In this document: in pieces, positions 766 through 44,255 of the stretch
Numbering within the stretch: the stretch's first letter is position 1
Layout of the letters: the number at the start of each line of letters is the position of its first letter
NCBI RefSeq assembly: GCF_000426665.1
Contig: NZ_AUFU01000002.1
Coordinates: 1-64,000 of the forward strand
Direction of reading: 5' to 3'
DNA length: 64,000 nt
From: Centipeda artemidis DSM 19719
GTDB taxonomy: Bacteria; Bacillota; Negativicutes; Selenomonadales; Selenomonadaceae
Notes under the pieces: generated by a model
What the model was told of the DNA's origin: nothing
Database searches by the model: none
The model's input: the letters and a program-made list of their open reading frames with translations, nothing else
Position numbers and translations under genes: made by a program

Positions 766-2295
766 TTGTTTGCAAAGACCTATGGTGCGACGACCCTCGG
801 GATAGATGGACGGATTATCGACGTTGAGGTGGATGTGTCGCCCGGGCTGCCGGGCTTTGAGCTGGTCGGTCTTCCCGATACGTCGGTAAAGGAGTCGAAG
901 GAGCGGGTACGGACTGCGATTCGCAACTCGGGCATTCAACTGCGGCAGGAGCGAGTGACGGTGAATCTTGCACCTGCCGATGTGCGAAAGGACAGCTCGG
1001 GGCTTGATCTGCCAATTGCGGTTGGTCTCCTTGCATCCTACGGTATGGTTCCGGAGATGGCGGTGCAGAGTGCTCTCTTCTCGGCGGAGCTTTCTCTCGA
1101 TGGGAACTGCCGTCCGATCAGCGGGATTCTTCCGATGGCGATTACGGCGCGTGAGCGGGGACTTACGGAGTTTTACGTTGCACCGTCCAATGCAGACGAG
1201 GCACTCCTGATTGACGGACTGAAGGTCTATGCGGTCGAGAATCTGGCGCAGCTTGTGCGTCATTTGACAGGGGCAGAAACACTGACTCCCGCTGAGCCAC
1301 AAGCAACAGAACAGAAAAAGGACGCTGCGTTTACCGATGACTTTGCGGACGTACAGGGGCAGTATCAGGCGAAACGTGCGCTTGAGATTGCGGCAGCAGG
1401 AGGGCACAATGTCCTCATGGTTGGCGTTCCCGGCTCGGGCAAGACGATGCTGGCACGTCGGATGCCTTCGATTCTGCCGGAGCTGACGAAGGAAGAAGCC
1501 ATCGAGATCACGAAGATTTACAGCATCTCGGGGCTGCTCGGAAAGGATACAGGGCTTGTGACCACGCGCCCCTTCCGCAGTCCGCATCATACGTCCTCGA
1601 CGGTGGCGATGATCGGCGGCGGGAGCATTCCGCGTCCGGGCGAGGTGACGCTTGCCCATCACGGCGTGCTCTTTCTCGACGAGCTGCCGGAGTTCAGCAA
1701 GAAGACGCTTGAGGTGCTGCGTGAGCCAATCGAGGATCGTCAGATTACGGTGTCGCGTGCGAACGCAACACTGACCTTTCCCTCTAGTATCATTTTGGTA
1801 GCGGCAATGAATCCGTGTCCATGCGGATATTATGGAGATAAGAACCATGTTTGTGAATGCAGTGCGGGGGAGATCAAGCGGTACACGCGCAAAATCTCGG
1901 GGCCGTTGCTTGACCGCATCGACATTCACATCCGCGTGTCGCGTGTGGATTACAACGACCTGCATACGACGCAGCGCGCGGAGTCCTCGGCGGCGATAAG
2001 AGCCCGCGTCGTTGCCGCGCGGGAAGCGCAGCGTGTGCGGCTGAAGTCATACGATCTGTTTTGCAACGCGCAGATGAATCACAGCATGATCAAAAAATAC
2101 TGCCGGCTGCAATCGGATGCCGAGGGCATTTTAGAAGCGGCGTTTCACCGGATCAATCTTTCGGCACGCTCGCACGACCGTATCATCAAGGTTGCCCGTA
2201 CGATCGCAGATCTAGACGGCGCACAGGAGATCGCGGCGAAACATATTGCCGAGGCGATTCAGTTGCGCAGCGATATCGGTCTCAATATCGACTAA
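766..2295 (+). CDS. comM: YifB/ComM-family AAA+ Mg-chelatase-like ATPase
   Basis: A 509-residue ComM/YifB protein. The N-terminal part (about 1-170) is the S5/Lon-like ChlI fold starting FAKTYGATTLGIDG. The AAA+ core follows, with Walker A GVPGSGKT near residue 220 and a Walker B LFLDELPEF. An arginine- and cysteine-containing segment (NPCPCGYYGD) typical of the family comes next. ComM is a hexameric helicase that promotes branch migration during natural transformation, which fits dprA, comEA and comEC elsewhere in this window. The start is a TTG at 766 after GGGAGGG (752-758). This start gives the family's usual N-terminus and no ATG lies nearby. Length is normal. Confidence 0.95.
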   Translation: MFAKTYGATTLGIDGRIIDVEVDVSPGLPGFELVGLPDTSVKESKERVRTAIRNSGIQLRQERVTVNLAPADVRKDSSGLDLPIAVGLLASYGMVPEMAVQSALFSAELSLDGNCRPISGILPMAITARERGLTEFYVAPSNADEALLIDGLKVYAVENLAQLVRHLTGAETLTPAEPQATEQKKDAAFTDDFADVQGQYQAKRALEIAAAGGHNVLMVGVPGSGKTMLARRMPSILPELTKEEAIEITKIYSISGLLGKDTGLVTTRPFRSPHHTSSTVAMIGGGSIPRPGEVTLAHHGVLFLDELPEFSKKTLEVLREPIEDRQITVSRANATLTFPSSIILVAAMNPCPCGYYGDKNHVCECSAGEIKRYTRKISGPLLDRIDIHIRVSRVDYNDLHTTQRAESSAAIRARVVAAREAQRVRLKSYDLFCNAQMNHSMIKKYCRLQSDAEGILEAAFHRINLSARSHDRIIKVARTIADLDGAQEIAAKHIAEAIQLRSDIGLNID

Positions 2296-2314
2296 AAATA
2301 TCGGAGTGAATAGC

Positions 2315-2647
2315 GTGTGTAATCATTCGGAATATGTCAAACTGGAAATTTTCATTCCCGAGACGCATCTTCCTGCGCTTCGTACGGCTCTGCAGTCCGT
2401 AGATGCCGGGCATATGGGCGATTACGATTCCTGTTTTGCGTATAGCCGCGTGACAGGAACGTGGCGCCCGCTCGAGGGGGCGCACCCGTATGCGGGGACG
2501 GTCGGAGAGATATGCGAAGCGCCCGAGTTGAAGGTGGAACTATGTGTTGCGGCGCAACGCATGGAGGAGACGGTTGCCGTCATCCGTGCCGTACATCCCT
2601 ATGAGATGCCCGCGATCTATGCACTGCCGCTCATCGGTGGAATTTGA
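2315..2647 (+). CDS. Small NIF3/CutA-like (YqfO C-terminal type) protein
   Basis: A 110-residue protein resembling the PII/CutA-like domain inserted in, or standing alone from, NIF3/YqfO proteins. It starts with a beta-strand (VKLEIFIPE) and carries GxxGxYDSCFAYSRVTGTWRP, then ends HPYEMPAIYALPL. Stand-alone members are conserved in Firmicutes but have no assigned reaction. A metal-binding or sensor-like trimer is the usual guess. The start is GTG 2315, eight bases after GGAG (2303-2306). An upstream in-frame ATG inside comM lacks a ribosome site. It follows comM by 19 bases and is probably co-transcribed. Confidence 0.75.
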   Translation: MCNHSEYVKLEIFIPETHLPALRTALQSVDAGHMGDYDSCFAYSRVTGTWRPLEGAHPYAGTVGEICEAPELKVELCVAAQRMEETVAVIRAVHPYEMPAIYALPLIGGI

Positions 2648-2666
2648 GTGTAAATTCCACCAGATA

Positions 2667-2695
2667 TACAACTTCCTTGGAGATTATGGTATAAT
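2667..2695 (+). promoter_or_regulatory. Probable promoter of the glycosyltransferase cluster
   Basis: An extended -10, TGG-TATAAT (TATAAT at 2690-2695), with a weak -35 TACAAC (2667-2672) at 17 bases. It lies about 60 bases before the next gene. Confidence 0.5.
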
Positions 2696-2755
2696 GGGAA
2701 AGTATGTCAATATGACATGTTTTTTTATTTGTCAGTTTAGGAAGGAGATGTGTTT

Positions 2756-3718
2756 GTGGCAGAGAAGATCCGTCCTGAACTTCTCTCGTTCTTACCCCCT
2801 GGCATGATGCCTCTGAAAATTCTTGTCGTGGAGAGTCTCTCTTACTTAATTAAACTAAAAGAGATGTTTCCCCAAGCGGAACTATATGCTGTGACCGCCG
2901 AATTGGATCAAGAAATATCCGTTTTTCCTGAAGGAATTCATTGGGAATTTCTTGACTATCTTTCTGTTCCATTACCATATACACGAAATTATTTTGACTA
3001 CATCATCTCAGATCTCACATTGGAGTGTGCTGCTAATCCTCAGGACATAGCGGCGGGGTTTTCTACATTTTTGAAAGAAACGGGAGCCTTACTCACAAGT
3101 TTTCGCAACATTCGACATTGGTCTGTATTGCAGAAACTCATGGAGGGACATTATTACGGTGTTGTCTCACGTCTTTTTGCACGACCCGAGTTTGAAAATC
3201 TGCTTTACGCGTCCTTTTATAAGAATGTTTGCGTTCGAAGACAGCTTCGTGAGGCTTCCGGCGAATTGATCGATCATCTTGTTGCGGCGGGCTTTGAAAA
3301 TGAACACAAGGATCTTGAGACGGAATTTTACCTTGTTCGTGCTGATCGTTCTATGCCGGAACTCTCCTTGCTTAAATCCATGTATACAGGGGCGGACCGT
3401 CAGGAGTTATCACGGCTGATTCATCGCATCGAGTATGAAGTAGACTGCCCGGAATCTATCCGAACACTGTGGTTCAAGGTAGAGACTTTGAATATTTTTT
3501 CGGATTATCTCGCTTCATTTATTCAAGAAACCGTTATGCATCAGGAGGCGTTCTACCGACGGCTGCTTGTACATTCTTTCGGGCGGCAGGATTTTATCAT
3601 TCGAATGCTTGCATATAGTGCGAGAGAAGCGTTTGATCCTTCGATGCGCAGAGTTTTTGCGGCACTCCAAAAGGAAGCTGAACATGGAAACGAAGGGATT
3701 TTATATGCCCGAACTTGA
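2756..3718 (+). CDS. Rossmann-like protein preceding glycosyltransferases, function unknown
   Basis: A 320-residue protein that I do not recognise as a named family. The first half looks like a class I methyltransferase-type alpha/beta fold: KILVVE strand, then an acidic turn, then NYFDYIISDLTLE followed by FLKETGALLTSF, where a methyltransferase has its beta4-beta5 region. A clear GxGxG SAM loop is missing, so catalysis is uncertain. The second half is helical. The start is GTG 2756, eight bases after AAGGAG (2742-2747). The out-of-place GTG at 2750 is the alternative. The stop overlaps the following glycosyltransferase by about 35 bases, so the two are translationally linked and probably act on the same glycan or glycoprotein. 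Confidence 0.55.
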   Translation: MAEKIRPELLSFLPPGMMPLKILVVESLSYLIKLKEMFPQAELYAVTAELDQEISVFPEGIHWEFLDYLSVPLPYTRNYFDYIISDLTLECAANPQDIAAGFSTFLKETGALLTSFRNIRHWSVLQKLMEGHYYGVVSRLFARPEFENLLYASFYKNVCVRRQLREASGELIDHLVAAGFENEHKDLETEFYLVRADRSMPELSLLKSMYTGADRQELSRLIHRIEYEVDCPESIRTLWFKVETLNIFSDYLASFIQETVMHQEAFYRRLLVHSFGRQDFIIRMLAYSAREAFDPSMRRVFAALQKEAEHGNEGILYART

Positions 3719-4394
3719 TCGCAATAAGGTTGCCTTTATTTCCTGCGTCAACGATGAGGATATGTATGGTGAATGCCTGCTGTACTTAAAATCATTGCAT
3801 GTTCCGCACGGCATATCGGTCGAATATATTCCCGTACGCGGGGCATCATCAATGTGTTCAGGCTATAACGAGGGCGCACGCAAAACAAATGCGCGATATA
3901 AGGTGTACCTGCATCAGGATGTGCTCGTAGTCAATAAGAATCTCATTCAGGATCTTTTTTCCCTCTTCCGGGACGAGGAGACTGCGCTTATCGGCATGAT
4001 CGGGTGCCGTAGTTTGCCGCATTCCGGTGTTTGGTGGGATGGTCTGCGTACCTATGGCAGGGTTTTGCATCATTGTGAATCCGAAAGTGTTGTGGATTCT
4101 CATTGTATGGAACCAGACGGAGACCATATTGAGGTGGAAGCAGTGGATGGGCTTCTCATTGCTATGCAGTATGATATACGTTGGCGGGACGATTTATTTA
4201 CAGGATGGCATTTTTATGATACGTCTATGTGCATGGAAGTTCGTCGGCATGATTTTAAGTCTGTGGTGCCAAATCAAGAACAAAATTTTTGGTGTATCCA
4301 CTGTCCGCAGGAAAAGCCGCTTTCACCTGATTACAAACGCTATCAAAAGATATTCCTCCGAGAATACGGCTCTGAATTGAATCCCGAAGTATAA
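3684..4394 (+). CDS. Glycosyltransferase, GT2-like family (Glyco_tranf_2_5 type)
   Basis: A 236-residue GT-A-like protein. After VAFISCVNDEDMYGECLLYLKSL comes the family's KVYLHQDVLVVN strand, whose HQD replaces the DxD of ordinary GT2 enzymes. GMIGCRSLP, a WWDG motif, and WHFYDTSMC follow near the C-terminus. These features fit the small single-domain glycosyltransferases of the Glyco_tranf_2_5 group often found in protein or lipid glycosylation loci. There is no membrane segment. The start chosen is ATG 3684 after AAGGAAG (3671-3677). ATG 3705 (after AAGGGA) is equally possible. It lies between the Rossmann-like protein and the GT41 protein in one operon. Acceptor and donor are unknown. Confidence 0.75.
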   Translation: METKGFYMPELDRNKVAFISCVNDEDMYGECLLYLKSLHVPHGISVEYIPVRGASSMCSGYNEGARKTNARYKVYLHQDVLVVNKNLIQDLFSLFRDEETALIGMIGCRSLPHSGVWWDGLRTYGRVLHHCESESVVDSHCMEPDGDHIEVEAVDGLLIAMQYDIRWRDDLFTGWHFYDTSMCMEVRRHDFKSVVPNQEQNFWCIHCPQEKPLSPDYKRYQKIFLREYGSELNPEV

Positions 4395-4420
4395 AATCTA
4401 AAGAAAGGAGGGCTTCCTAC

Positions 4421-6190
4421 ATGCAAGAGCAGCCTCCGCAGAATGAACACAAAGCCGAAGAGAAGATGAATTGGCTCAAACTGGCTGCAAAATTTTCCGC
4501 AGACGGCGATTTGAGGGGGATGCGTGCCTGCGCTCAGGAAGTCGACAAACTTGCGGAAGGGGATGTCGATGCTGTGGCGGTCAATGCAGAGGCAGCACTC
4601 TACAGTGGCAGTATTGAAGAGGCACAGCAACTTGCAGAGCAAGTACTCCGCGTGTCACCTCGCCATCCGCGTGCCCGCATGGTATGGGCAGGGCTTGCCG
4701 CACTCGAATTTCGCCTTGGGGATGAGATCTCTCTGCTGGCTGATCTAATTGAAGAGCTTTCCTACAAAGCAAAAATTCTTGGTGAAGACGATCCTGCCTA
4801 CAGCATATATTATCAAATGCTTCGGCGTGCGCGCGGCTGGCTTGCGGATGCGTTCTATCTTGGCGGAGAGGCAAAAGGTGCAGCTCATGAGTTGCTGATG
4901 TCCAGCCGCCTTGCTAAGGAGCCGAGTGAAGAGGCGGAACTCTACAGTAAATACTTGTTTATGCGGAACTATCGTTATCTCGGAGCGCGCGAAGGTCGGC
5001 AAAAAGCAGAGCTCTATAACGATATGGTTGCTGTGACATCTTACACACATGAAAATGCATTGCGTACAGAGCATCGAAAGCTCCGGATAGGCTACATCTC
5101 ACCGGATTTTCGTGAGCATGCGGTCGCATATTTTTTAACGCCGCTGCTGCGCCATTTTGACGGAGAGCAGTTCATGGTTTTTTGCTATGCGACGGGGCGG
5201 AACGATGCAGTTACGGATCGTTTGCGTTCACGGCGCGTGACCTGGCGTGATTTACGCAGCAGATCCCCACGGACAGCCGCACGTCTTATCAATGAAGATA
5301 GAATAGATATCCTTGTTGATCTCTCCGGGCATTCTCAGGATAACGCGCTGCCCATTATGGCCTATCGTCCTGCACCCATCCAGATCTCCGGCATCGGTTA
5401 TACAAATACGACAGGGGTAGATACTATAGACTATTTCTTGTCGGATGAAATTTGTATTCCCTATGGAGACACCACAGCGGAATCAGGTTTTACAGAACAA
5501 ATCCTAAGAATGCCACATTCGCATCTTTGTTATGCGCCGGAGGAAATTCGCCCGATGCCGGAGACAGGCTTTGAAGCTCCTGTGCGCAGAAACGGCTATG
5601 TGACCTTTGGCAGCTTTAACAATTTTGCCAAAGTAACGGATGAAACCTTACTACTATGGCGTGGTATTTTAGAATCTGTTCATGATTCGCGGCTTGTCAT
5701 AAAAGGAAAAATTTGCAGCATTGATGCCGGTAAGGATTTTCTAAAGAAACGGCTGTCACTGCTCAGCTATGATATGACGCGTGTCGAGCTGCGCCCCTAC
5801 AGTCCCGATTATCTCGAACAATATCGCGATATTGATATTGCACTTGATACGGCGCCATACAACGGCGGATTAACCACATGTGAGGCACTCTACATGGGAG
5901 TACCCGTGATCTCAATACGCGGTCGTACACACGGCGCACGTTTTGGCGCGTCTATTTTAACCAATGCCGGTGTGCGTGAACTCGTCGTAGAAAACGATAT
6001 CAATTATGTACGACGCGCCGTTCAACTGGCGGAGTCGCCAAAACTAATTGAGGCATATCACGCGGGGCTTCGGACGAATATGAAGCGATCCCCACTGATG
6101 GATATACAGTCTTATATGCACGCTTTGGAAGATGCATATGTGGAGATTTGGAAGAAATTCTGTGACATAGGGGCAAAACAGTCCATATAG
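4421..6190 (+). CDS. TPR-OGT/SPINDLY-type GT41 glycosyltransferase
   Basis: A 589-residue protein with an N-terminal TPR-like helical region (about 15-180, for example GDLRGMRACAQEVDKLAEG and GSIEEAQQLAEQVLRVSPRHP). A GT41 catalytic region follows: LRIGYISPDFREHAVAYFLTPLLRHFD, then RIDILVDLSGHS with PIQISGIGYTNTTG, and later TFGSFNNFAKV and LDTAPYNGGLTTCEALYMGVPVIS. These are the hallmarks of bacterial O-GlcNAc-transferase/SPINDLY homologues, which glycosylate Ser/Thr of proteins, in several anaerobes flagellin. The start ATG 4421 sits eight bases after AAAGGAGG. No flagellar or surface-protein gene is nearby, so the target is not visible here. Sugar donor unknown. Confidence 0.88.
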   Translation: MQEQPPQNEHKAEEKMNWLKLAAKFSADGDLRGMRACAQEVDKLAEGDVDAVAVNAEAALYSGSIEEAQQLAEQVLRVSPRHPRARMVWAGLAALEFRLGDEISLLADLIEELSYKAKILGEDDPAYSIYYQMLRRARGWLADAFYLGGEAKGAAHELLMSSRLAKEPSEEAELYSKYLFMRNYRYLGAREGRQKAELYNDMVAVTSYTHENALRTEHRKLRIGYISPDFREHAVAYFLTPLLRHFDGEQFMVFCYATGRNDAVTDRLRSRRVTWRDLRSRSPRTAARLINEDRIDILVDLSGHSQDNALPIMAYRPAPIQISGIGYTNTTGVDTIDYFLSDEICIPYGDTTAESGFTEQILRMPHSHLCYAPEEIRPMPETGFEAPVRRNGYVTFGSFNNFAKVTDETLLLWRGILESVHDSRLVIKGKICSIDAGKDFLKKRLSLLSYDMTRVELRPYSPDYLEQYRDIDIALDTAPYNGGLTTCEALYMGVPVISIRGRTHGARFGASILTNAGVRELVVENDINYVRRAVQLAESPKLIEAYHAGLRTNMKRSPLMDIQSYMHALEDAYVEIWKKFCDIGAKQSI

Positions 6191-6224
6191 GAATGGATCC
6201 AAAAGATGAGAGGAGGAAACATAC

Positions 6225-9200
6225 ATGTCGTTTGTCCATCTGCATGTACATACGGAATACAGCTTGCTTGACGGTGCAAGCCGCATCAAGGAGTTGGTGC
6301 AGCGGACGAAAGAACTGGGGATGGACTCTGTTGCCATCACGGATCACGGCGTCATGTATGGAGCCATTGCTTTCTATAAGGAAGCCATGGCACAAGGGAT
6401 TCATCCAATCATTGGTTGCGAAGTCTACGTTGCGCCACAGTCACGACATGAACGTACAGAGGTGGACGGTGTTCGCTATTATCACCTCATCCTGCTTGCG
6501 GAGAATGAAATCGGCTACCGTAATCTCGTTCGCCTTGTATCCCTCGCAAATATCGAGGGATATTATTATAAGCCACGTGTCGATAAAGATTTGCTTCGTC
6601 AATACCATGAAGGAATCATTGCGTTGTCTGCCTGTGTGGCAGGGGAGATTCCGCGATCCATCCTGCTCGGGGATCCGGAGCGTACTGACGAGATTCTTGC
6701 CGAATATGTGGATATATTCGGTCGAGACAATTTTTTTCTAGAGCTACAGGATCATGGGCTCCCTGAGGAAAAGACTGTCAATCATGCCTTACGTGATCTT
6801 TCAAAAAAACACGACATCGGACTTGTTGCGACCAATGATATCCACTATGTGAGAGCAGAGGACAGCGAGTTTCACGATATACTCCTCTGTGTACAGACGG
6901 GGCGAACGATCAACGATCCCAATCGGATGCGGTTCTCGGGACCCGATTACTACCTGAAATCGGAAGCCGAGATGACAGCGCTCTTTCACGATTATCCGGG
7001 CGCTGTTGAAAACACTGCAAAGATTGCCGCGCGGTGCCGTGTAGACTTTACCTTTGGAGAATTGCAGCTGCCGTTTTACCCAATTCCAGAAAAATTTGCT
7101 GATGATGATGCGTATTTACGAACACTCTGTGAAGAACGGCTGCCGGAGCGTTATTCGGAGATTACTAATGAGATTCGTTCGCGTCTGGACTACGAGCTCG
7201 GTGTCATTCACGGGATGGGATATGCCAGTTACTTCTTAATCGTCTGGGATTTTATCAATTATGCACGAGGACACGGTGTTGCCGTAGGTCCGGGGCGCGG
7301 CTCAGCGGCAGGAAGCATCGTCGCGTATTTGCTGGAGATTACGAATATTGATCCGCTCCGATATGCGCTCCTTTTTGAGCGGTTCCTGAATCCTGAACGC
7401 GTGTCCATGCCGGATATCGATATCGATTTTGACGACATCAATCGAGGCAGAGTGATTTCGTATGTCAAAGAGCGCTATGGGGAAGATCATGTCGCACAGA
7501 TTGCTACATTTGGTACGATGGGAGCAAAAGGGGCGATTCGCGATGTTGGGCGTGTTCTGGAAATGTCGTTTTCAGAAGTGTCCAATATTACAAAGCTTGT
7601 GCCGAGCGAACTTAACATTACTATTGACCGCGCACTAAAGGAATCCGCGGATTTTCGCCGTCTCTATGACGAGGATGAATCGGTACGTCGTGTCATTGAT
7701 CTTGCGCGCAAGATTGAGGGACTGCCTCGCAATACGTCCATCCATGCGGCGGGCGTTGTGATCGCGAAGGAGCCGCTGACCAATCACGTTCCCGTATGGA
7801 TATCGGAAGGAACTCTTGTCACCGAATTTGATAAGGACGATGTCGAGGCACTTGGTCTGCTCAAGATGGATTTTTTAGGGCTGCGGACGTTGAGCATCAT
7901 TGAAGATGCACTTAAAAATATCCGCACGTCCCACGGGATCGACATTGATATCGACAATATTCCACTCGAAGATGATCTGACTGCACAAATGCTGTGCGAT
8001 GGCGATACGGGTGCAGTGTTTCAGATGGAATCTGCGGGTATGACGAATCTTGTCAAGGATCTGCAGCCGAAGGGATTCGTCGATCTGATCCCGACGGTCG
8101 CGCTCTATCGCCCGGGACCGCTCGGCAGCGGCATGGTGACGGACTTCATCGACGGACTGCATGGAAAAAAAGAAGTTGTCTACATGCATCCACTTCTCGA
8201 ACCGATCCTAAAGGAGACATTCGGGGTCGTGCTCTATCAAGAGCAGGTCATGCAGATCGTACAGGTGCTCGCGGGATTTACGCTCGGTCAGGCGGATCTC
8301 CTGCGGCGTGCTATGGGCAAGAAAAAGCATGAGCTCCTCATGGCTCAGAAGGAATCTTTTCTTGCTGGTTGTGCGAATAACGGCATCGACGCCCCCCTCG
8401 CGAACCATATCTTTGATTTGCTGACACATTTTGCGGATTATGGGTTTAATAAATCGCACAGTGCATCTTACGGACTCCTTGCATGGCAGACAGCATATCT
8501 CAAAGCACATTACCCCGTAGAGTTCATGGCGGGCGTCCTCACGAGCATTATGGATAAGACGGATAAAATTCCCGTCTATATCCGGCTTTGTCATCAGATG
8601 AAAATCAGGATACTGCCGCCGGACATCAATTCTAGTGCGGCAACATTCAGTATCGAAAGCGGCGCAATACGATTTGGTCTTGCAGCGGTCCGCAATGTTG
8701 GCGAGAATGCGATTGCCGTGCTGGAGCATGTCCGCGAAGAGGGCGGGCCTTTTCGCTCTCTGGTGGATTTCTGCACGCGTGTCGATCTACGAATACTGAA
8801 TAAACGGGCGATCGAGAGTCTCATCAAATGCGGTGCATTTGACAGCCTTGGAATTGATCGCAATCATCTCCTGGCGTCACTTAATGCCGCCGTCACGGAT
8901 GCGGCACGCAGGCAGCGTGATTTACTGAGTGGCCAGATTGGTCTCTTTGGCGACGAGGCCATGGCAGAGATCCAGCAGATCGGTGATTTTGACGATGTTC
9001 CGCTCTGTACGCCGCGCGAGCGTTTGATCTGGGAGAAGGAGGCAACCGGATTTTACATTACGGGGCATCCGCTGGAGGACAATCAAGAGACGCTTTCGCA
9101 TTTGCAGCCAATCGGGCAAATCGCTGCGGCAGTGCGGCGGGATCGCCAGCTCATGCGCGTCGGCGGTATCCTCACGAGCACGAAGCGTTTTACGACGAAG

Positions 9201-9617
9201 AAGGGCGACACGATGCTCTTTGCGGATTTGGAGGATTTCACAGGAACGCTTGAGGTCACGGTATTTCCGCGTGTCTTTTATGCCCATGTATCCGACTTGG
9301 AGCCGGATCAAGTCGTGGTTATTCAGGGACGCGTCGATACGGCAGGTGAGACGCCGAAACTGCTTGCCGACGAGATTTGGCGCATTGACGATTATCGGAC
9401 GTCGTATTATCTGACGCCGCCCCAAGATGCGGATCGCGCCGCACTATGGGAGAAAATGAAGGACGTGTTTGCCGCACACACCGGAGATCATCCCGTCTAT
9501 GTGCAGAGTGACGGGCGATGGCGCAGACTGGACGAGACGTATTGGATTGATGGCACGCCCGAGGTACGGGCGGAGCTCAGTACGCTTTTGGGCGAGACTT
9601 CAGTGCGGATTCGATAG
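6225..9617 (+). CDS. dnaE: DNA polymerase III alpha subunit
   Basis: A 1130-residue replicative polymerase of the DnaE type. It has an N-terminal PHP domain (HVHTEYSLLDG, then ITDHGVMYGAIAFY). The polymerase palm has GPGRGSAAGS and the catalytic acidic cluster PDIDIDFDD near residues 396-404. HhH and beta-clamp-binding regions follow, then a C-terminal OB-fold (VGGILTSTKRFTTKKGDTMLF). Length is normal for a short-form DnaE without a proofreading exonuclease. It extends DNA at the fork in the holoenzyme with the beta clamp. The start ATG 6225 follows GAGGAGG, 34 bases after the GT41 gene, so it may also be read from that operon. Confidence 0.97.
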   Translation: MSFVHLHVHTEYSLLDGASRIKELVQRTKELGMDSVAITDHGVMYGAIAFYKEAMAQGIHPIIGCEVYVAPQSRHERTEVDGVRYYHLILLAENEIGYRNLVRLVSLANIEGYYYKPRVDKDLLRQYHEGIIALSACVAGEIPRSILLGDPERTDEILAEYVDIFGRDNFFLELQDHGLPEEKTVNHALRDLSKKHDIGLVATNDIHYVRAEDSEFHDILLCVQTGRTINDPNRMRFSGPDYYLKSEAEMTALFHDYPGAVENTAKIAARCRVDFTFGELQLPFYPIPEKFADDDAYLRTLCEERLPERYSEITNEIRSRLDYELGVIHGMGYASYFLIVWDFINYARGHGVAVGPGRGSAAGSIVAYLLEITNIDPLRYALLFERFLNPERVSMPDIDIDFDDINRGRVISYVKERYGEDHVAQIATFGTMGAKGAIRDVGRVLEMSFSEVSNITKLVPSELNITIDRALKESADFRRLYDEDESVRRVIDLARKIEGLPRNTSIHAAGVVIAKEPLTNHVPVWISEGTLVTEFDKDDVEALGLLKMDFLGLRTLSIIEDALKNIRTSHGIDIDIDNIPLEDDLTAQMLCDGDTGAVFQMESAGMTNLVKDLQPKGFVDLIPTVALYRPGPLGSGMVTDFIDGLHGKKEVVYMHPLLEPILKETFGVVLYQEQVMQIVQVLAGFTLGQADLLRRAMGKKKHELLMAQKESFLAGCANNGIDAPLANHIFDLLTHFADYGFNKSHSASYGLLAWQTAYLKAHYPVEFMAGVLTSIMDKTDKIPVYIRLCHQMKIRILPPDINSSAATFSIESGAIRFGLAAVRNVGENAIAVLEHVREEGGPFRSLVDFCTRVDLRILNKRAIESLIKCGAFDSLGIDRNHLLASLNAAVTDAARRQRDLLSGQIGLFGDEAMAEIQQIGDFDDVPLCTPRERLIWEKEATGFYITGHPLEDNQETLSHLQPIGQIAAAVRRDRQLMRVGGILTSTKRFTTKKGDTMLFADLEDFTGTLEVTVFPRVFYAHVSDLEPDQVVVIQGRVDTAGETPKLLADEIWRIDDYRTSYYLTPPQDADRAALWEKMKDVFAAHTGDHPVYVQSDGRWRRLDETYWIDGTPEVRAELSTLLGETSVRIR

Positions 9618-19831: not shown

Positions 19832-19852
19832 ATTGAAAAGAACGAAGTTCTT

Positions 19853-20003
19853 AGCGCCGGTTCTGAAATGGTACGGAATATATTTCAGAAAACGAGGAGA
19901 AGGTTGTCGACCCGTCGGCGGATGCCTTCCGGCACGCTCTGTCGAGAGTCTGCGGTCAAATCATGGGGGCGACTCCGTGGACAAAGCCGCAGACGGAGCG
20001 GAA
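19853..20003 (+). ncRNA. glmS ribozyme (glucosamine-6-phosphate-activated)
   Basis: The 5' UTR of glmS carries the conserved core of the glmS self-cleaving riboswitch. The cleavage site is A/GCGCC between 19853 and 19854. AACGAGGAGAAGG, TCGGCGGATGCCTTCCGGC and GACTCCGTGGACAAAG all match the family core in order. GTCTGCGG pairs with CCGCAGAC around the last of these. The RNA uses GlcN6P as a coenzyme to cut its own mRNA, which is then degraded, giving feedback on hexosamine synthesis. A small AAGAAC/GTTCTT hairpin (19838-19852) lies directly before the cleavage site. Exact ends are approximate, and ORFs overlapping this stretch are not genes. Confidence 0.95.
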
Positions 20004-20049
20004 TCCCTGAGAGATGTTCTATATGTTCTATCAATCGGGAGGTATTTTT

Positions 20050-43888: not shown

Positions 43889-44255
43889 TTGGTATGAGAA
43901 ACCGAGACAATCGCCTGTATCGTTTTTGCGATGCATGAGGAAAGTCCGAGCTCCACAGGGCAGTGTGCCGGATAACATCCGGCGAGGGTGACCTTAGGGA
44001 CAGTGCCATAGAAATTTAAACCGCCGGCTTTGCCGGTAAGGGTGGAAAGGTGCGGTAAGAGCGCACCGGCGATCGGGTAACCGGTCGGCCTTGGTAAACC
44101 CCACATGGAGCAAGACCAAATAGGGAAGGATAAAGGCGGCCCGTCGACCTTCCGGGTAGAGTCGCTTGAGCCTGCGGGCAACCGTCGGCCTAGATAAATG
44201 ATTGTCGCCGCCGCAAGGCGGAACAGAACTCGGCTTATTGGTTTCTCGTAGCCAA
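43889..44255 (+). ncRNA. rnpB: RNase P RNA, bacterial type A
   Basis: The catalytic RNA that trims tRNA 5' leaders. Conserved blocks appear in order: GAGGAAAGTCCGAGCTCC, AAACCGCC, AAGGGTGGAAAGGTGCGGTAAGAG, a CAAATAGGGA segment, TAGAGTCGCTTGAG, GGCCTAGATAAATGATTGTCGCC and ACAGAACTCGGCTTA. Helix P1 is formed by TATGAGAAACC at the 5' end and GGTTTCTCGTA at the 3' end. The layout is type A (ancestral, E. coli-like) rather than Bacillus type B. Ends are placed by the P1 pairing TTGG/CCAA and agree with the promoter. Overlapping ORFs on both strands are artefacts. Confidence 0.97.

Follow-up and report, generated by a model that had tools for sequence, protein, structure and literature searches.

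A pseudo-methyltransferase paired with glycosyltransferases in a candidate protein O-glycosylation module of Centipeda artemidis

How bacterial protein O-glycosylation systems select their acceptors is poorly understood. By analogy, the nearest described case to the genes reported here is that of the enterobacterial flagellin islands, in which methyltransferases are common and most family 41 glycosyltransferases (GT41) bear an AdoMet (S-adenosylmethionine, SAM) methyltransferase domain, as stated in the accessible part of that study (PMC4875605). FlmG of Caulobacter crescentus, according to the available portion of its description, is a cytoplasmic flagellin O-glycosyltransferase that combines a tetratricopeptide repeat (TPR) part, which binds flagellins, with a GT-B glycosyltransferase part, and it is described as sufficient for flagellin modification once pseudaminic acid is made (PMC7591256). 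Here, we analyzed 64,000 nt of Centipeda artemidis DSM 19719 (Selenomonadaceae; assembly GCF_000426665.1, contig NZ_AUFU01000002.1, positions 1 to 64,000, forward strand), called the window in the following, which holds three adjacent genes, A, B and C, at 2756–6190. With a slight balance of probability in its favor, we read A-B-C as a cytoplasmic protein O-glycosylation module, which most likely serves the flagellin machinery and in which A would be a non-catalytic pseudo-methyltransferase subunit.

The locus resembles the enterobacterial islands in joining a GT41 enzyme and a methyltransferase-fold partner in a flagellin context. In the islands, this domain lies within the GT41 polypeptide and has been presented as a methyltransferase domain, whereas here it is separate or fused to a glycosyltransferase of the GT2_5 type, and its SAM loop is shortened; for the enterobacterial domains, the part of the paper available says nothing of a lost SAM site (PMC4875605). 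FlmG, with its cytoplasmic TPR plus GT-B build, is comparable to C, whose own TPR-like match is weak; the main text of the FlmG report, as far as it was accessible, contains neither the term “methyltransferase” nor “family 41” (PMC7591256). No paper was found in literature searches for two combinations, namely a pseudomethyltransferase joined with a glycosyltransferase, and a complex of an inactive methyltransferase with a glycosyltransferase in bacteria. Catalytically dead homologs which partner an active transferase are known from METTL3-METTL14 and GtfA-GtfB. Proteins and clients of those systems are unrelated to the present ones, where a dead methyltransferase fold stands beside glycosyltransferases. 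The enzymes belong to known families; what looks new is that one partner is a dead methyltransferase, that it occurs in two separate pairings and that it can be fused with B.

All three genes are encoded on the + strand and each is preceded by a plausible ribosome binding site. A (2756–3718, 320 aa) starts with GTG, approximately 8 nt downstream of the stretch GGAAGGAG. Because of this stretch, and since orthologs of A start with MAEKI, the GTG at 2756 was preferred over the mechanically assigned GTG at 2750. B (3684–4394, 236 aa) starts with an ATG preceded by AGGAAG and overlaps A by 35 nt; C (4421–6190, 589 aa) follows after a gap of 26 nt, its ATG being preceded by AGGAGG. All 14 genus genomes keep the order A-B-C, which is, therefore, not due to chance. 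A first-pass annotation, made from the sequence alone, had described tightly coupled genes, the first overlapping the second, with a GT2-like and a GT41 enzyme in second and third place, and had suggested a small glycosylation system with an undescribed partner. These claims are supported by the gene structure and by the family assignments below. The same annotation had left the first protein unrecognized and had recommended structure prediction, which was carried out for A together with Pfam, phmmer, Foldseek and VIA-align searches and sequence alignment. On this evidence, A is recognizable as a methyltransferase fold whose SAM loop is lost.

At the Pfam cut-offs, A of the window belongs to no family (Methyltransf_31, 16.8 bits with a cut-off of 27; Methyltransf_11, 14.7 bits with a cut-off of 21.2), although some other members of the A family, the best of which matches Methyltransf_11 at an E-value of 1.1e-5, may pass. 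The sole phmmer match below an E-value of 0.1 is the putative methyltransferase 3cc8 (1.4e-4), which is found by the A family profile at 7e-8. An AlphaFold model of A, based on 64 sequences, has a predicted local distance difference test score (pLDDT) of 90 and a predicted template modeling score (pTM) of 0.73. Residues from about 1 to 200 form a class I methyltransferase-fold domain according to AlphaFold and VIA-align (2765–3355 on the + strand for residues 4–200). The best solved match of the model is again 3cc8 (Foldseek E-value 4.4e-11; VIA-align Z 19.7, 189 residues, 3.1 Å, spanning residues 4–199 of A). Residues 201–320 (3356–3715, + strand) constitute a C-terminal helical domain, with helices at 201–309 according to DSSP of the model, which is barely covered by the VIA-align rows. 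A novel fold is, thus, ruled out for the first 200 residues by AlphaFold, Foldseek and VIA-align. A phage origin of the protein was rejected as well, with zero matches at an E-value of 0.01 among 50,697 phage records.

The ancestry of A is indicated by larger proteins. Six intact methyltransferase domains of relatives align with A in hhalign at an E-value of 6.6e-19 over 196 columns. In these relatives, the domain homologous to A is located behind a GT2 domain and, in locus L056 and one L057 protein, also ahead of a GT2_5 domain, so that homologs of A, and in the latter two of B too, occur in one polypeptide. According to Pfam, GT2-methyltransferase fusions occur in L055, L058 and one L057 protein, and GT2-methyltransferase-GT2_5 fusions in L056 (6945–9005) and another L057 protein (7366–9489). 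One protein of 834 aa is built as GT2-methyltransferase-GT2-methyltransferase (Pfam; L046 6384–8885, genome G027) and lies near an A-B fusion and GT41 genes. L057 and L046 belong to the same family, whereas L055, L056 and L058 stem from different families within the class. The single GT2-methyltransferase-GT2_5 proteins of L056 and L057 are the apparent ancestors of the A-B pair; A would descend from the methyltransferase domain of such a multi-domain GT2-methyltransferase(-GT2_5) glycosyltransferase.

Relatives of A were studied in the best 80 of 148 confirmed relatives, and the named ones are mostly from Selenomonas, besides Centipeda, Mitsuokella, Quinella and Selenomonadaceae records. Motifs were counted in 81 A sequences (all 80 loci and the window) and in 22 rows of a paralogous type, A′. 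The latter were chosen by similarity to a copy on contig C8 of this genome and include L076 and L078, which are positionally nearer to A. Motif I, the glycine loop of the SAM site, is degenerate in the alignment (residues 22–30; 2819–2845, + strand): two residues are deleted in 81/81 A and 22/22 A′, and the first glycine is replaced by E in 80/81 A and by D, E or N in 22/22 A′. Accordingly, the pattern G.[GA].G is absent from the first 70 residues of all 80 A proteins and from the first 75 residues of all 17 rows of an alignment termed A1. The acid at the end of strand 2, which contacts the ribose, is replaced in 80/81 A and 21/22 A′, mostly by T or A, and is kept as E in one sequence of each type. 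Furthermore, all 81 A proteins have L in place of the D of the DVLEH motif, and the D-R of the DRTH segment is gone in 81/81 A and 22/22 A′. In contrast, the intact domains of the fusion proteins keep GCACG and an acidic residue (E/D) after strand 2 in six of six cases. A is, hence, a pseudo-methyltransferase, i.e., a methyltransferase fold with lost cofactor-site residues. Based on the loop deletion and the lost ribose acid and D-R, we infer that A is unable to bind SAM.

Despite these losses, A is not a decaying pseudogene. For 17 sequences (the window and 16 loci hand-chosen from the 81), the ratio of nonsynonymous to synonymous substitution rates (dN/dS) of A ranges from 0.025 to 0.123 in the 14 pairs whose dS stays below 1.5 for A, B and C alike, and A is, therefore, maintained by purifying selection; moreover, A1 has 32 invariant columns across its 17 rows. 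An in-frame stop is present in some of the A matches in other genomes. One residue is conserved only in the pseudo-methyltransferases: R120 of the segment N-I-R (residues 118–120; 3107–3115, + strand, from the alignment) is found in 81/81 A, 21/22 A′ and 17/17 A1 rows, and the six intact domains have M, T or K at this position. R117 and D86 are fixed in 81/81 A, but this does not extend to the more divergent A1 rows.

Both B and C look like working enzymes, judging by profile matches, the conservation of B and relatives in PDB. B, assigned by Pfam search, alignment and model, matches PF13712 (Glyco_tranf_2_5) over the whole profile (1–210 of 210) with an E-value of 1.2e-78. An alignment of 46 of the 67 B proteins adjacent to A, together with that of the window (A5, 47 sequences), has a mean column identity of 77% with H77, D79, H176 and D179 invariant. 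Residues 77–79 (H-Q-D; 3912–3920, + strand) are a candidate DXD-like site. The conserved motifs HxD and GWHxYD of B are putative catalytic motifs. The model of B (pLDDT 88) has a GT-A fold and is most similar to majastridin (2nxv/2qgi, about 2e-11; 2qgi is the UDP complex), followed by several polypeptide, collagen and other glycosyltransferases. C was classified by Pfam and structure search as a GT41 protein O-glycosyltransferase (PF13844, E-value 9.9e-41, 140 bits with a cut-off of 25). Both catalytic segments are present, the first at 5024–5524 (profile positions 62–228) and the second at 5600–6127 (369–543), both on the + strand. The N-terminus of C has a weak TPR-like match (TPR_16, E-value 2.5e-4, 21.9 bits, below the cut-off of 32.7). 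Neighbors of C in PDB are SPINDLY (4.6e-81), the TPR repeat protein 5djs (1.2e-58) and human OGT (about 1e-35), and residues 207–582 align with the catalytic domain of SPINDLY (7y4i). For SPINDLY and bacterial OGT, we know of no accessory pair like A-B. An HMW1C-like N-glucosyltransferase was rejected for C (NCBIfam NF049992, 26.7 bits with a cut-off of 1000).

The first-pass annotation had also called for a gene-neighborhood analysis and had named a lack of conservation of the cluster as a unit as a refuting result. Conservation holds for A and B: B is found within 600 bp of A on the same strand in 67 of the 80 loci, in the order A-B in 43 and B-A in 24. For C it fails in some lineages, as a C-like GT41 gene is found at most 3 kb from A in only 46 loci, 45 of which have B as well. 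Among the 13 loci without adjacent B, three (L151, L153, L161) have B about 0.9–2.7 kb upstream and in four (L150, L160, L165, L171) the contig ends a short distance from A; the remaining ones, e.g., L148 and L175, have no B in the flanking DNA covered. In L148 and L175, about 8 kb on either side of A contain no match to B or to a C-like GT41. A and B even form one open frame of 549–629 codons in at least 20 of 151 genomes of the family (genera g5, g13, g15 and g21), a fusion being called when both profiles matched at the same place with the same frame length. Gene-order reversal and fusion suggest that the pairing of A with B is functional and probably physical. A′ forms a second pairing. In 19 of 20 loci (excluding L076 and L078), it immediately follows a GT41 gene, and none of these loci has B in the flanking DNA covered. 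The second copy of this genome (contig C8; L040 8026–10304) is of this kind, with a GT41 gene followed by A′ at an overlap of 4 nt and no B gene. The conserved unit is, thus, the A-B pair, frequently but not invariably joined by a C-like GT41, and A′-GT41 is a second pairing without B.

The distribution of the genes was examined in 299 genomes across the phylum and in 151 of the family. Phylum-wide, six genomes match A at E ≤ 1e-10, five of them from this family, including G018 by a fused domain only; the sixth is G390 of another family (2e-12, in a 608-codon frame). Within the family, the A profile matches 138 of the 151 genomes. Six genomes from three genera are without flagellin, and all six also have neither A nor B nor GT41. 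In the 145 genomes with flagellin, A is present in 138, B in 134 (133 above cut-off) and GT41 in 144. Fisher tests of co-absence with flagellin give p-values of 1.2e-7 for A, 8.3e-7 for B and 4.7e-10 for GT41, for genomes which are not independent; counted by genus, the value for A is 0.001. All 14 genus genomes have, among the matches listed, a GT41 match at a distance of 5.9–8.1 kb from a match to flagellin. In the genome studied here, contig C5 has a GT41 array at 14.7–21.5 kb and flagellin at 28.1–29.4 kb. This tandem GT41 region is a candidate for the main flagellin glycosylation island of the genome. The array ends with a TPR protein, homologs of which are found together with GT41 genes ahead of A in L045, L046, L047, L050 and L076; in the first four of these, B adjoins A or is fused to it. 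Heavy O-glycosylation of flagella has been reported for S. sputigena in the accessible parts of two papers (PMC13339959; PMC7142665).

This candidate island corresponds to L039 (G000:C5:8001–28000) and L098, with tandem GT41 genes, a GT2 protein (L039 14113–15588, Pfam) and a TPR protein about 7 kb from flagellin. The common gene rmlD is present in this genome.

Several observations weigh against flagellin as the client or against the module as such. The co-absence represents few independent events, since only 3 of 30 genera lack flagellin. Conversely, of the 145 flagellated genomes, seven are without A, 11 without B and one without GT41; A-B are, therefore, not required for flagella as such. 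Flagellin is found near A, within the flanking DNA covered, in 4 of the 80 loci and a rough estimate, which assumes 5–7 flagellins per 2.5 Mb genome, gives 2–3 by chance, so that a tight linkage of A and flagellin is unsupported. No flagellin gene adjoins the cluster in the window, and 34 of the 80 loci lack a C-like GT41 in the 3 kb on either side of A, some of them ending at a contig edge. Outside the family, GT41 and flagellin are uncoupled, as G048 has GT41 without flagellin and several genomes show the reverse. The flagellar link already raised by the first-pass annotation is supported by the co-absence of GT41, A and B with flagellin, but it is indirect.

We considered that the same module might serve a client other than flagellin, either a different protein of the surface or the cytoplasm or a glycan that is not attached to protein. 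Besides the missing enrichment of A beside flagellin and the case of G048, the position of the cluster between a YifB-like ATPase region and dnaE, found in the window, L041 and L042, fits such a client, and PF13712 is named in papers on lipooligosaccharide loci, as far as their text was available (PMC10327509, PMC4172580). On the other hand, none of the six flagellin-less genomes of the family retains A, B or GT41, A is located behind GT41 genes in other genera, and A and flagellin share a contig in several genomes, among them G033, G030, G027, G032 and L072 (about 8, 4, 13, 18 and 2 kb apart, respectively). Taken together, we regard another client as unlikely, although it is a serious alternative.

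A second possibility is that A acts as a sensor or regulator instead of a stable scaffold, its old cofactor pocket binding a nucleotide sugar or glycan and controlling B or C. Indeed, N118, R120, K156, D186, K207, R215, R224 and E226 are invariant in both A1 (17 rows) and A2 (64 rows; 63 of the 80 loci and the window, after removal of near-identical rows). Such invariant charged or polar residues suggest a ligand or an interface, and the data fit either. However, the one-frame A-B fusions and a pairing independent of gene order point to a stoichiometric assembly, and a sensor appears improbable to us. Finally, it is very improbable that A still works as a methyltransferase, its SAM site having been rebuilt, and methylates the sugar added by B or C: the overall fold of A is kept, Methyltransf_11 matches 56 of 64 A-family members weakly (E-values up to 0.1, at best 1.1e-5) and, in the accessible text on enterobacterial islands, such enzymes are common and AdoMet domains are carried by most GT41s (PMC4875605), but the shortened loop, the replaced glycine and ribose acid, and the missing D of DVLEH and D-R of DRTH recur in all or nearly all sequences.

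Regarding the surroundings of the cluster, the statement of the first-pass annotation that no target protein gene is adjacent proved correct. Upstream of A lies a gene for a Mg-chelatase/ComM-type ATPase (Pfam), presumably yifB, and downstream of C, at 6225, the gene of the DNA polymerase III alpha subunit (Pfam). Just above the cluster, a short open reading frame (ORF) at 2246–2647 is CutA1-like and matches only the second half of the profile (43–86 of 99). A scan of 2200–6300 for promoters and terminators yielded fewer sites than shuffled sequences (3 vs. 5.5 and 1 vs. 3.3, respectively), and we, therefore, make no claim on the ends of an operon. Elsewhere in the window, a glmS ribozyme (Rfam RF00234) was found at 19842–20004, just upstream of a 621-aa ORF looking like glmS, and the RNase P RNA at 43895–44252. 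On contig C5, neighboring genes encode proteins of 726 and 715 aa, which start almost identically and each contain a divergent PF13712 domain (L096 7949–12283; G000:C5:65949–70283), in what appears by eye to be a sugar-nucleotide gene region.

In the favored module, C would place the first sugar on Ser/Thr of flagellin, and B would most likely extend the glycan by the next sugar or supply another of its sugars. A, its SAM loop gone, would bind B and position it on the acceptor, and its paralog A′ would do so for a GT41 enzyme. In this way, A may contribute a further layer of recognition beyond TPR-flagellin binding of the FlmG kind. Tentatively, and with slightly more doubt than confidence, we propose that A founds a pseudo-methyltransferase family, with strong matches so far only in Selenomonadaceae and kin, whose members are obligate dead subunits, A for GT2_5 and A′ for GT41 OGT, aiming both at flagellin. 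Being under strong selection and recurrently found beside glycosyltransferases or fused to them, such a dead methyltransferase is a candidate aiming or assembly subunit, and A-B-C is a candidate gene set for the unusual glycans that have been reported on flagellin of oral Selenomonas. If this is true, the module would represent a heteromeric protein O-glycosyltransferase guided by a dead subunit.

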